Below are positions 142 through 6,015 of a stretch of DNA of 30,975 bases, in pieces. Location of the stretch: IMG/VR virus record IMGVR_UViG_3300020474_000065, positions 1 to 30,975 of that record. One strand, written 5' to 3'. Below the pieces are notes generated by a model. It had not been told where the DNA came from and ran no database searches. It saw only the letters and a list, made by a program, of their open reading frames with translations. The position numbers and the translations under genes were made by a program. This DNA comes from a virus. Position 1 is the first letter of the stretch. Each line of letters starts with the position of its first letter.

Positions 142-170
142 TTGACTTTAACATAAAAGTATGGCATACT
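142..170 (+). promoter_or_regulatory. Promoter of the first operon
   Basis: TTGACT (142-147), a 17-base spacer ending in TATGG, then CATACT (165-170). The same arrangement occurs at 2085-2113 and, on the minus strand, at 13817-13845. The expected start of transcription is near 177, followed by the ribosome-binding site GAGGT (185-189) and ATG at 195. Confidence 0.8.
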
Positions 171-194
171 GAATATATAGAAATGAGGTAAATA

Positions 195-996: not shown

Positions 997-1661
997 TAAG
1001 TGATTTTATAGAAGATAATATATCTGAAGATAAAGCAGGGCCTATGTTCTATGCTTTAATGTTTTACAATGATGTTCGGATTCAAGAATATGAAAAGAAT
1101 GCAATATCTGTTTTGCGTGATAATTTACGATGGATGACAGATACTTCTTCTGCAGAAAAAGATAATGAAATTTGTTCACAATCTATTTTTGCTTTTATGG
1201 AACTTTGTATGGCTGAGTTAATGTATCAAGGAGTAAAAGACATTAAAAAGAAAGAACTGATAAGAAACGCTGATGCTGTATCTACTCTTAAAAATAAAAA
1301 GTATCGTAGATTAAACAGTAGAGATAAAAGACAAGCTGTTAAGTGGTGTCTTTGGAATTACGAAGATGAAGTACTAGCTATGTCTGCAAGTGTAAAAAGA
1401 ATAGTTGGTGGTTGTTTATCTTTCTTAGCAGAGAAAAGTGTTGATGGTGGTTCAACTTTGTTTAAAAAAGATATAGATGATATGTTTTTAGATGCTAAAT
1501 CTAAAATTTATGACCAAGGACTACCAAGTGCTATTGGAGATGAAGACGAAGAAAGATTTGATACAGAAGAAGAACAAAGTATAACTTTAGATTTAATTTC
1601 TAAAGCTATGTATTCAGATGATTATGTAGAAACAGTAATTGACTTCTGTTTTGATTCTTAA
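993..1661 (+). CDS. Unknown protein (222 aa)
   Basis: 222 aa, start overlapping the previous stop (ATGA), so probably translationally coupled. The protein looks soluble and largely helical. Residues about 110-135 are basic (K-K-Y-R-R-L-N-S-R-D-K-R-Q-A-V-K-W) and the C-terminal quarter is acidic (G-D-E-D-E-E-R-F-D-T-E-E-E). I see no catalytic motif or metal-binding cluster and cannot assign a family. It ends the first operon and is followed by the structured intergenic region. Confidence 0.75.
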   Translation: MISDFIEDNISEDKAGPMFYALMFYNDVRIQEYEKNAISVLRDNLRWMTDTSSAEKDNEICSQSIFAFMELCMAELMYQGVKDIKKKELIRNADAVSTLKNKKYRRLNSRDKRQAVKWCLWNYEDEVLAMSASVKRIVGGCLSFLAEKSVDGGSTLFKKDIDDMFLDAKSKIYDQGLPSAIGDEDEERFDTEEEQSITLDLISKAMYSDDYVETVIDFCFDS

Positions 1662-1711
1662 TATAATTAATCTTGCTTGACTTTACTAGCAATAGTAATT
1701 TCAGCGGGACA

Positions 1712-2046
1712 GCCTTGTGGTAAACGATACGATGGGAAGGTATTGGTTTGGACACTTGTACACTGACATTAGGGAGCGATACCCTACACAAGGCCTAGGG
1801 AACCGGAAGTATAACTAAATATTGTATGATATTGTAATACTAAATGTAGTGATTAAGTATAAGTTATAAATAGGTTCCCTTAAGTTTGCCATCCCAATTA
1901 TTTAAATAATGACTATGTAAATATCTACTATGGGGTGGTAAAAACGACGAGCAATTGAGAGGGTATAATTATTAGGTCGGTGATTATTTAGAAATAAATA
2001 ATCCTTTGCCGATACCCTCCCATCGTCGGCTCTCTAAGGAGAGCCG
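1712..2046 (+). ncRNA. Candidate large structured RNA in a 480-bp gene-free region
   Basis: No ORF fits 1662-2144, yet it is full of helices. 1712-1719/1787-1794 (GCCTTGTG/CACAAGGC). 1739-1745/1777-1783. 1797-1804/1873-1880 (AGGGAACC/GGTTCCCT) enclosing 1810-1816/1862-1868. 1888-1896/1931-1939 (nine pairs, two G-U) enclosing the palindrome 1897-1910. 1945-1949/2024-2028 enclosing 1959-1965/2013-2019, 1977-1980/2009-2012 and a nine-pair hairpin 1982-2003 with a GAAA tetraloop. 2027-2034/2039-2046 (eight pairs, loop TAAG). In addition 1729-1737 (ACGATGGGA) is complementary to 2018-2026, which would make a long-range pseudoknot. The strand is assumed from the flanking genes. A possible -35 (TTGACT, 1677-1682) has no good -10, so the RNA may instead be the processed 3' end of the first operon. 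The last hairpin lacks an adjacent T-run. I do not recognise the family. Confidence 0.55.
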
Positions 2047-2084
2047 TATCTAAAATGACTTTACAAAATTTTTTTATTTTTGGC

Positions 2085-2113
2085 TTGACAAATTAAATTT
2101 TGTATGGCATACT
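2085..2113 (+). promoter_or_regulatory. Promoter of the small-gene operon
   Basis: TTGACA (2085-2090), a 17-base spacer ending in TATGG, then CATACT (2108-2113). The -10 and the bases after it are nearly identical to the promoter at 142-170. The first gene starts at 2145 behind a purine-rich site (AGGGGAG, 2130-2136). Confidence 0.85.
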
Positions 2114-3313: not shown

Positions 3314-3422
3314 AAGATATAGAAAAGAACAGCACGAGTGGAGTCGTGAAATAAATTGGAATCACAATTTACCTGTTTATGGTGAGGGGAGCAAAGATGA
3401 ACAGAGCACAAAGAAGAGCTAA
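3306..3422 (+). CDS. Possible basic mini-protein (38 aa)
   Basis: 38 aa, starting eight bases inside the previous gene and running 26 bases into the next one. It begins M-R-K-R-Y-R-K-E-Q and contains three Trp/Tyr residues in a short span. No clear ribosome-binding site precedes it, and the 26-base overlap is longer than elsewhere in the operon, so it is less certain than its neighbours. Confidence 0.4.
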   Translation: MRKRYRKEQHEWSREINWNHNLPVYGEGSKDEQSTKKS

Positions 3423-3495
3423 GAAATCTAAAAAAGGTACTAAGTATCGTGGTTTAAGTAAGAGACAAGTTCTTACGCCCGATTCTTGGAGATAG
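3397..3495 (+). CDS. Small basic protein (32 aa), related to the one at 895
   Basis: 32 aa, preceded by GAGGGGAG (3385-3392). It begins M-N-R-A-Q-R-R-A-K-K-S-K-K-G, a start seen in many tiny phage proteins. It resembles the 33-aa protein of the first operon. Likely nucleic-acid-binding by charge only. Confidence 0.6.
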   Translation: MNRAQRRAKKSKKGTKYRGLSKRQVLTPDSWR

Positions 3496-3503
3496 GAGAA
3501 AAT

Positions 3504-3881
3504 ATGACTGAAGATTATAAAAGAGGCCTAGGCAAAACATATGAAAAAGTTCAAATGATAAAGAACTGTGCAGATATGTTAAGTGTTGGTTGGGCTATTA
3601 ATACAGAGACAAAAAGAAGAGAAGTAGTTTTACTTTTAAAACACGAAAGTGGAGCAATTACTCCTTTAGCAAGTCTTTGGACAGCAGAAGATTTTAATTT
3701 AAGAGAGTACGACGAAAAAGACTCTCTAATACTCGAAAGAGTATTTAATCTATATCAAGCTGAAGACAATAGAGAAAGCTTTGATGAATTAAATGACGGA
3801 TACCATCCTAAAGATAGAACTTATGATGATATGTGGAAATTTATCGACGGTGCTAGAGAAGCAGTCGAAGATATAGAATAG
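3504..3881 (+). CDS. Unknown protein (125 aa)
   Basis: 125 aa from ATG 3504, chosen because TAGGAG lies about five bases upstream. A TTG at 3486 in the same frame would add six residues but has no ribosome-binding site and lies inside the previous gene. The protein appears to be a single alpha/beta domain: strands near V-G-W-A-I-N-T and R-E-V-V-L-L-L, then an acidic helical half. No catalytic motif is visible. It is the last gene of the operon and is followed by a folded element. Confidence 0.7.
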   Translation: MTEDYKRGLGKTYEKVQMIKNCADMLSVGWAINTETKRREVVLLLKHESGAITPLASLWTAEDFNLREYDEKDSLILERVFNLYQAEDNRESFDELNDGYHPKDRTYDDMWKFIDGAREAVEDIE

Positions 3882-4003: not shown

Positions 4004-4708
4004 ATGCCTAATCAAAATAACAATAGAATAGATACTGAAAGTCAATATGACTTTCAAACAGACAAATGTGCTGTTCGTAAATGCAAATGGGTTTCCCAAA
4101 AGCCAAACGACGAAGGTGCTTTAGACTTGATTACACAAGGTGGTTATGGTGACTTTATGGATTACTATGACAGTGACCCTGTGTATTTTCGTTTATGTCA
4201 CAAACACGCACATCGATTTTCAAGTTGGTTAAACAACCCTAATGTTTTACCAAGACACAACGGACACGCCCACAATGGTAGTGAACCGGGTTTTTGGTAT
4301 GGACATATTGGTTGGGACCAATACACTTGGTTGTCTTACTTAAATAACTTTTTGTTTCATCTCTTAAAGGAGAACATAAAGGTAGCAGTTAATGTTTTTA
4401 AAAGACAATTAGAACATCACATTACTTGGAACCGACAGGATATTAATGACAGGTCTACTCCCGTCATTAAAAAAGATTTTATCTTTAAACTGTTTTTTCA
4501 AAGTAAAGCCTACAAAGGTTTTGTTAATGCAAAACGTAGGCAAATTTATGTTATGTATCATAATTGGATTAAAAGCACCTACCGAAATCATATATCTCTA
4601 GATAGAGAAATATGGCAAAAAGTCATTAATGGTGAATTGTCTGATATAGATTTAGAAATAATGGCTCATATCACTGATGCCAATAGGTCTAGTTCCGAAG
4701 AAGAATAA
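4004..4708 (+). CDS. Unknown Cys/His-rich protein (234 aa)
   Basis: 234 aa from ATG 4004, with AAAGGTG (3992-3998) five bases upstream. A TTG at 3989 would add five residues but lacks a site. Residues about 22-70 hold C-A-V-R-K-C and, later, L-C-H-K-H-A-H, a possible C-x4-C ... C-x-H-x-H zinc site. The segment around 83-105 is rich in His, Gly and Trp, and the C-terminal half is basic and helical. It lies directly before the large terminase, where a small terminase subunit is often found. However I see no N-terminal HTH and no TerS signature, so I leave it unassigned. A strong terminator follows. Confidence 0.65.
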   Translation: MPNQNNNRIDTESQYDFQTDKCAVRKCKWVSQKPNDEGALDLITQGGYGDFMDYYDSDPVYFRLCHKHAHRFSSWLNNPNVLPRHNGHAHNGSEPGFWYGHIGWDQYTWLSYLNNFLFHLLKENIKVAVNVFKRQLEHHITWNRQDINDRSTPVIKKDFIFKLFFQSKAYKGFVNAKRRQIYVMYHNWIKSTYRNHISLDREIWQKVINGELSDIDLEIMAHITDANRSSSEEE

Positions 4709-4709
4709 A

Positions 4710-4738
4710 ACAGCCTCCTAGAAATAGGAGGTTTTCTT
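4710..4738 (+). terminator. Rho-independent terminator before the terminase gene
   Basis: CCTCCTA (4714-4720) and TAGGAGG (4725-4731) form a seven-pair stem closed by a GAAA tetraloop and followed by TTTTCTT. It ends the unit containing the gene at 4004. It runs straight into the -10 of the next unit. Confidence 0.85.
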
Positions 4739-4743
4739 CGTTA

Positions 4744-4758
4744 TATAATACAAGTATG
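4744..4758 (+). promoter_or_regulatory. Perfect -10 box placed for a leaderless terminase mRNA
   Basis: TATAAT (4744-4749) is followed by six bases and then ATG (4756). Transcription would be expected to start at or next to the A of the ATG. No ribosome-binding site precedes the ATG; the nearest AGGAGG (4726-4731) is inside the terminator stem and too far away. No -35 is evident. The same arrangement occurs at 15028-15043. Confidence 0.6.
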
Positions 4759-6015
4759 CCTAGAGACATACTAGAAAACACTCAAAGTGTTCGAGAACAA
4801 GAATTTATACTAGAGTTTCCCTCATTACATAAAGCACAACAAACCGTTAGAGATGACCCTGCTCGTTGGAAAATACTATGTGCAGGTCGTCGTTTTGGAA
4901 AATCTAGACTTGGTGTACAGCTTTGTTTAGAAGAAGCTCTTAAAGGTGGTCGTGTTTGGTGGGTTGCACCTACTTTTGCGATAGCTAGAGTTGGTTGGAG
5001 AGATGTTGTTGCTGCTGCTCAAGAGTTTCCACCCGAAGCTGGAGTAGATATTAGAATTGGTGATATGGAAGTAAAATTTCCCGGAGGTGGTTCTATATCT
5101 GTTAAATCTGCTGATAATCCTCAAAGACTTCGTGGTGAAGGCCTTAACTTCCTTGTTATGGATGAGGCCGCTTTCGTAAGAGAAGAAACTTGGACAGAAG
5201 TACTAAGGCCTACTCTTACTGAAAATAAAGGTTCTGCATTATTTATATCAACCCCTATAGGAATGGACAATTGGTTTTATCATCTGTGGGAAAAAGCACA
5301 CACAGCTGATGATTGGGCTAGATTTCAATATCCAACAGTAGCTAATCCAATAATAGACCCTGCCGAAGTAGAATCTGCAAGAGAAGACTTAGGAGAATTA
5401 GTATTTGCTCAAGAGTATCTTGCAGAATTTATTTCTGAAGGCGCACAAATGTTTAGAAGCCATTGGTTTAATTATTACAAGTTAGGTGTAGGAACTATTT
5501 GGTGTGAAGGTGAAAAATTTGACATCAATACAGATTTAGTAAAATTTGCAACAGTTGACTTAGCTGCTTCTACTAAAGAGTCTGCTGACTATACAGTCAT
5601 TTCAGTATTTGGATATCATATGCAATCTGACAGATTATTTATGTTAGATATGATTAGAGATAGATTTGAAGCACCCGATATCGTTCCACAAATTAAAAGA
5701 GCAGTTGGAATACATAATTTAGAATGGGTAGGAATTGAAAAAACCGGTTATCAGTTAGCTATAGTTCAGTTTGCTAGAAGAGATGGATTAAGAATTAAAG
5801 AACTAAGGGCCGATAAAGACAAGCGGTCACGAGCACTACCTTTGTCTGCTAAGATGGAAAGAGGACTTGTATATTTTCCTAAAGATGAAGACTGGGTTGG
5901 AGAAGTTGAAAGAGAACTTCTTACTTTCCCTGTCGGAGTTCACGATGATATCGTGGATACTTTAGCCTATGCTTGTCTGAGTAGCGGAACTAAAAGAAAA
6001 TGGGAAGCATTTTAA
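4756..6015 (+). CDS. terL: Terminase large subunit
   Basis: 419 aa. This is the ATP-driven motor and nuclease that packages phage DNA into the prohead. The ATPase domain shows Walker A A-G-R-R-F-G-K-S (43-50), Walker B F-L-V-M-D-E (132-137) and the coupling motif S-T-P (165-167). The C-terminal RNase H-like nuclease shows three acidic positions: D268 in F-A-T-V-D-L-A, E328 in G-I-E-K-T-G, and D397/D398 in H-D-D-I-V-D. Length is typical. The ATG has no ribosome-binding site and lies just after a TATAAT, suggesting a leaderless mRNA. The portal gene follows with no gap. No small terminase subunit was recognised in the window. Confidence 0.95.
   Translation: MPRDILENTQSVREQEFILEFPSLHKAQQTVRDDPARWKILCAGRRFGKSRLGVQLCLEEALKGGRVWWVAPTFAIARVGWRDVVAAAQEFPPEAGVDIRIGDMEVKFPGGGSISVKSADNPQRLRGEGLNFLVMDEAAFVREETWTEVLRPTLTENKGSALFISTPIGMDNWFYHLWEKAHTADDWARFQYPTVANPIIDPAEVESAREDLGELVFAQEYLAEFISEGAQMFRSHWFNYYKLGVGTIWCEGEKFDINTDLVKFATVDLAASTKESADYTVISVFGYHMQSDRLFMLDMIRDRFEAPDIVPQIKRAVGIHNLEWVGIEKTGYQLAIVQFARRDGLRIKELRADKDKRSRALPLSAKMERGLVYFPKDEDWVGEVERELLTFPVGVHDDIVDTLAYACLSSGTKRKWEAF

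Follow-up and report, generated by a model that had tools for sequence, protein, structure and literature searches.

Between two gene blocks of an uncultured tailed marine phage lies an interval that an earlier note described as devoid of genes and occupied by one large structured RNA, which raises the question of whether such an RNA exists, how it is organized and how it might act. The window, that is the whole stretch of DNA analysed (IMG/VR virus record IMGVR_UViG_3300020474_000065, 30,975 bases), codes for TerL (4756-6015) and carries portal and capsid genes. Positions 1662-2144 are flanked by ORFs 993-1661 and 2145-2387, with no plus-strand ORF of at least 60 amino acids between them. The longest plus-strand open frame of the interval has 39 codons, so the stretch is without a gene as described, and no hidden ORF was found in its plus-strand frames. 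A protein scan with the 222-residue neighbour gave no relatives. The plus strand of 1662-2144 folds with -141.6 kcal/mol compared with -104.2 +/- 6.1 for dinucleotide shuffles (z -6.15, none of 100 shuffles being as good), and the minus strand folds more weakly (z -4.39). The helices listed in the earlier note were found in place, including the GAAA-capped nine-pair hairpin (1982-1990/1995-2003) and the two outer helices around it (1976-1981/2008-2013 and 1959-1966/2012-2019). The higher local GC content is a weak effect (36.3% versus 30-32% in the flanking genes and 35.1% in the window).

About 50 further contigs from marine phages have a homologue of the element upstream of TerL. A TerL scan identified 33 relatives, and blastn with the element had hits in most of the relatives with contigs extending into the region. 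The 20-mer CCGATACCCTCCCATCGTCG is found in 34 viral-contig stretches. In phages with TerL identities of only 61-68%, a covariance model of the 3' core (R1), whose E-values are rough, detected weaker hits (E 4e-6 to 0.03) at the corresponding position upstream of TerL; none of the loci searched had a strong match elsewhere. The RNA invariably lies on the side of TerL, at 0.1 to 3 kb before the gene, and immediately precedes it in loci L107 and L108. Nucleotide search of isolated phages yielded AT-rich chance matches only. In bacterial genomes the TerL scan found no host and the 20-mer scan no copy (0 genome contigs). Note that TATAAT or TATACT followed by exactly 6 nt and ATG is seen at the TerL start of L107, L108 and L109 and at the gene after the RNA in L042 and L049. 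These starts read as apparent leaderless mRNAs, for which reason an actinobacterial host was considered.

Selection at the RNA level was assessed with an alignment of 15 full-length homologues (A5), on which RNAalifold was run without guidance. The consensus has 50 pairs, 15 of them with both-sided changes that keep pairing. Paired cells amount to 97.6% (88.0% in shuffles), cells with both-sided changes to 75 (28.0 +/- 3.6) and the covariation score to 0.319 (0.138); none of 500 shuffles reached the values of A5, in tests that are inflated by the relatedness of the sequences. Pairing drops to 42-50% when the partner is slid by 1-3 columns. Two further helices, the acceptor-like one and the one that closes 1888-1939, are obscured by MAFFT gaps and were examined strand by strand. 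With strands picked by eye, both-sided changes are found in 6 of 8 and 8 of 10 pairs, respectively; a shuffle test without strand picking supports both helices, the lineages being related and the combined p-values only indicative. At the level of sequence comparison, these homologues and compensatory changes well above shuffles show that 1662-2144 codes for an RNA whose secondary structure is conserved and covaries. No Rfam family was matched at the gathering threshold, and permissive thresholds gave nothing usable. The structured RNA outside Rfam is thus supported by Rfam, homologue and covariation tests, while the description as one large RNA proved incomplete: the group-wide part is a small two-hairpin RNA and the large 5' part is lineage-specific. 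Judged from these comparisons, the locus is a previously uncatalogued structured RNA family of modular organization, in which a small RNA is built into a longer RNA (Table 1).

Table 1. Features of the RNA locus (window coordinates, except for the last line) with their sequence motifs and support.
Feature	Position	Strand	Remarks
Upstream promoter TTGACT-N17-TATAAT, predicted	1639..1667	+	11/12 consensus matches, 17-nt spacer
5' hairpin CUUGC/GCGGG around UUACUAGCAAUAGUAA, then GGGACAG motif	1672..1708	+	predicted fold
tRNA-like acceptor/T-arm module	1712..1794	+	
Acceptor GCCUUGUG/CACAAGGC	1712-1719/1787-1794	+	both-sided changes in 6/8 pairs, five lineages (by eye)
Loop TACGATGGGAAGGTAT, complement of the C-rich linker	1728..1743	+	duplex -20.8 kcal/mol, z -3.6 vs shuffles
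T-stem UAGGG/CCCUA	1770-1774/1782-1786	+	both-sided changes in 2/5 pairs, five lineages (by eye)
7-nt T-loop AGCGAUA	1775-1781	+	
Branched domain closed by AGGGAACC/GGUUCCCU	1797..1880 (1797-1804/1873-1880)	+	
Inner stem AUAACU/AGUUAU of the branched domain and conserved ACUAAAUGUAGUG	within 1797..1880	+	
Hairpin domain closed by GCCAUCCC/GGGGUGGU, inner AUUAUUUAAAUAAU hairpin	1888..1939	+	
Helix CGACGA/UCGUCG	1945-1950/2023-2028	+	MFE and consensus fold
Helix GAGGGUAU/AUACCCUC	1959-1966/2012-2019	+	MFE and consensus fold
Internal -10 box TATAAT	1964..1969	+	6 nt upstream of G1976
Universal small RNA	1976..2046	+	33 distinct variants, one three-part fold, identical linker
Small-RNA 5' hairpin	1976-2013	+	
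Small-RNA linker CCCUCCCAUC, 10 nt	2015-2024	+	unpaired
Small-RNA 3' tetraloop hairpin CGGCUCUC-UAAG-GAGAGCCG	2027-2046	+	
Promoter TTGACA-N17-CATACT of the downstream gene block, predicted	2085..2113	+	10/12 consensus matches
Second sister-clade element	L089 3058-3404; L106 5262-5604; also L090, L098, L091, L093, L084, L103		

The universal RNA is 75-85 nt long across the phage group. All 33 variants are predicted to fold into a hairpin, the unpaired identical CCCUCCCAUC and a second hairpin, and the unit has 28 covariation cells versus 8.3 in shuffles. The -10 hexamer that precedes it reads TATAAT in 27, TACAAT in 4, TATACT in 3 and TAGACT in 2 of 36 distinct loci, spaced from GUCGG by 6 nt in 26 of them and by 7-9 nt in the remainder. 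It matches the consensus at 5 or 6 of 6 positions in 34 of the 36 loci, whereas ~6% of random positions reach at least 5/6 in range. An extended -10 (TGn before the hexamer) is found in 9 of the 36; TTGAAA can be read 18 nt upstream of the hexamer in L107 and L108, and most members have no obvious -35 box for this internal promoter. L015 retains TATAAT though the overlapping stem is shifted. We infer that the small unit is transcribed separately from the internal promoter, with its start at G1976. In a sister clade (TerL 66-68% identical) the RNA is ~85 nt long and directly follows the preceding ORF, in the order TGnTATAAT or TGGTACAAT, 6 nt, GUCGGCU-hairpin-AGCUGAC, UGCCCUCCCAUCAAC, 3' hairpin. 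The latter, 11 pairs followed by U8, is an intrinsic terminator and the upstream pairing is absent, so that the unit stands alone in this clade; because it ends in a terminator there, it is probably an independent small RNA. The window's lineage has no U-run right after the 3' hairpin, which leaves a discrete 3' end uncertain.

The small unit follows ~300 nt of structured RNA in five lineages, the window's among them, and is the 3' end of a long RNA of ~375 nt in the window's lineage. L031, L036, L042, L015 and the whole sister clade carry the small core only; the large 5' extension belongs to particular lineages and is replaced or absent elsewhere. The promoter predicted at the 5' edge of the long form is a feature of the window's own clade, as is the equivalent of the 5' hairpin. 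It lies within the 3' end of ORF 993-1661 with a predicted start near 1674, and TTGACT-N17-TA(T/A)AAT equivalents are readable in L004, L006, L010 and L034. Window positions 159-180 and 2101-2123 share a near-identical -10 region, GTATGGCATACT(A/G)AATATATAG (95% over 22 bases), a likeness that may reflect one promoter type shared by two gene-block starts in the phage.

The tRNA-like module consists of a 7-8-bp acceptor-like stem stacked on a 5-bp T-stem, with loops AGCGAUA, UGCGAUA, UUCAAAU or UGCAAAU across lineages. The acceptor complementarity gave p 0.002-0.08 per lineage in a shuffle test, and the T-stem is also within the computed A5 consensus. L037 has the canonical T-loop UUCAAAU and a weak, sub-threshold Rfam tmRNA T-arm match; L067 seemingly has two tandem modules, as read from the sequence. 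The helix closing the branched domain is 100% paired in 15 homologues, with both-sided changes in 3 of 8 pairs. Its ACUAAAUGUAGUG motif is restricted to this locus among viral contigs and a U-run follows the domain in most relatives. For 1888-1939, 10 of the 13 sequences tested have stronger complementarity than shuffles (p<0.05). L016 has additional inserted sequence (4600-4720) that separates the hairpin domain from the core; it contains a second CACGACGAGC and a GGACAG motif, which suggests a local module duplication. The helices of 1945-2028 would enclose the 3' core and mask the C-rich linker; they are nearly invariant, without covariation support, and absent in the sister clade.

CCCUCCCAUC is the sole long invariant unpaired segment of the RNA and includes the anti-Shine-Dalgarno core CCUCC, which suggests pairing with G-rich ribosome-binding sites. 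The RNA probably works by base-pairing through this stretch, which could alternatively bind a protein or the ribosome. In the mechanism that we propose, the small RNA would be transcribed from TATAAT 1964-1969 with its start at G1976, and CCCUCCCAUC would pair with G-rich RNA, most likely GGGAG or GGAGG ribosome-binding sites of host or phage messages, to repress or shift their translation. The second promoter (1639-1667) would make the ~375-nt form with the acceptor/T-arm module, in which the linker would be covered by 1945-1966 or by the loop 1728-1743. With two promoters, the long form may thus be the 'off' state and the short form the 'on' state; alternatively, one transcript may act as a sponge for the other. 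We consider the chances evenly balanced that linker pairing, a small RNA from an internal promoter and a long form from a second promoter are together the whole explanation.

Scanning of the phage genomes for linker targets found no conserved site besides the RNA's own upstream loop. The best target sites vary between phages and lie away from start codons; with no conserved phage mRNA target, the targets, if any, are probably in the host. The loop 1728-1743 is the best plus-strand linker-complementary site in the 31-kb record. It extends the exact complement between 1729-1737 and 2018-2026 that had been taken for a nine-base pseudoknot: the complementarity is real but lineage-specific. Linker-complementary loops of differing sequence are present in the long form (GAUGGGAAGGUAU, and GUGGGAGGG and GAUGGGAGG in other lineages; p 0-0.03, upstream region), and the L038/L039, L037 and L052 lineages lack a significant loop of this kind. 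No significant pairing was found between the linker and the large RNA of the sister clade (p 0.09-0.28). The switching suggested in the earlier note is therefore retained in part: 1945-1966 and 1728-1743 are both possible partners of the linker, but only some lineages have analogous alternatives, and the CGATACCCT repeat (1777-1785 and 2010-2018) is present but unconserved in relatives, its first copy being T-loop/T-stem sequence that is different in other lineages.

The closest functional analogy is with bacterial small RNAs that have a C-rich seed, such as the actinobacterial 6C RNA and the staphylococcal UCCC-motif RNAs. Two hairpins are common to both, as is an accessible C-rich stretch fit for pairing with G-rich ribosome-binding sites, here a conserved seed predicted unpaired in all variants. 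The -10 box is found in 36 of 36 loci, and a terminator is clear in the sister clade, with none found in the window. Their C-rich stretch is in loops whereas here it is between hairpins, and the present RNA is phage-encoded and has no Rfam match. Among large RNAs, GOLLD assembles into a 14-mer cage. It is a phage-borne, non-coding RNA with a conserved 3' part and a less conserved 5' part, with tRNA-type modules in its 5'/linker part (PMC12286853). The 3' core described here is likewise in all members, with a variable or absent 5' part. The long form has ~375 nt and a conserved core of 75-85 nt, while GOLLD often exceeds 800 nt and lies near tRNA genes, none of which was found nearby by ARAGORN. 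The GOLLD covariance model had no match at the gathering score in the window and ten relatives, nor at E<=10 in 1600-2200. ROOL, also a large phage RNA of unknown function, had no covariance-model match and no shared architecture was recognised, in agreement with the earlier note, which recognised neither class. ARAGORN found 0 tmRNA or tRNA genes and Rfam none in the window, so that the module is tRNA-like and not a tRNA. It resembles these RNAs in its stacked acceptor and T-stem, its 7-nt loop and the L037 T-loop, and differs in having no anticodon arm, tag ORF or CCA end, the window T-loop AGCGAUA being non-canonical. No group I intron was matched in Rfam. Literature on terminase-linked RNA motifs, C-rich phage small RNAs and tRNA-like phage RNAs revealed nothing matching.

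The same data can be read as a single large ornate RNA in the style of GOLLD and ROOL, the ~375-nt transcript being one folded, perhaps oligomeric, particle of which the conserved 3' core and the variable 5' region are parts and TATAAT a structural bulge. Covarying domains do form a continuous series over 1712-2046, one of them (1888-1939) lying beyond the terminator-like stem, and GOLLD (PMC12286853) shows a similar combination of a conserved 3' part, a variable 5' part and an embedded tRNA-like module. This reading is doubtful nonetheless: several lineages and the entire sister clade carry just the small core, TATAAT is kept although the overlapping pairing is altered or lost, and the Rfam GOLLD and ROOL models are unmatched. 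A leader or boundary element acting in cis on the TerL-side block, by control of transcription (attenuation, antitermination) or translation, agrees with the invariable TerL-side position and the terminator-like stems. It is unlikely in view of the separate promoter predicted after the RNA in the window (2085-2113), of the TATAAT-N6-ATG read for TerL itself downstream of the RNA in L107/L108 and of the terminator that closes the sister-clade RNA. Tolerance of G-U wobble in the helices, better folding of the plus strand, RNA-type tetraloops (GAAA, UUCG) and the promoter/terminator arrangement make it very improbable that the inverted repeats act as DNA in packaging or replication, even if they are long, perfect and near terminase genes.

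For the small RNA nested in a longer transcript, a broader proposal can be made, which we hold to be less likely than not. The locus would represent a new class of large ornate phage RNA in a widespread marine phage group. The longer transcript with the tRNA-like module would hold off a universal small RNA that has a promoter of its own, forming a two-promoter switch or an RNA-RNA partnership at a gene-block boundary, and an unrelated large RNA would occupy the neighbouring position in the sister clade. To our knowledge, few phage RNA families outside Rfam have been proven by covariation, and large phage RNAs (GOLLD, ROOL) are still without a function. The present family offers a small, invariant and easily mutated working part, CCCUCCCAUC; its minimal form is clear and long forms occur naturally, which brings the function of such RNAs within reach of testing. 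Metatranscriptomes can be searched for expression and hosts with the covariance model and alignments.

Related phages carry further elements nearby. In the sister clade, the small RNA is separated from the TerL block by a second, different conserved non-coding element of ~350 nt, closed by AACAAUUAAAU/AUUUAAUUGUU. Both-sided changes are found in 19 of its 88 predicted pairs, many from L084 alone; it has no Rfam match, its folding energy is no better than that of shuffles, and its motif is found in 17 viral stretches. L049 (4563-4642) and, similarly, L042 (4605-4680) have a tRNA/tmRNA-like domain, GGGGCTG...GGTTCGACTCCCTCCAGCTCCACCA. In L049 it has G3:U70 and an encoded CCA, whereas an extended hairpin replaces the anticodon arm and the body of a tmRNA is missing; it scores 48.6 bits (E 6e-16) with Rfam tmRNA and could be charged with alanine. 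L049 also has a 114-residue ORF (3369-3713) ending in TCGCGDSFS, like A-type iron-sulfur carrier proteins as read from its sequence, which is a possible auxiliary gene.
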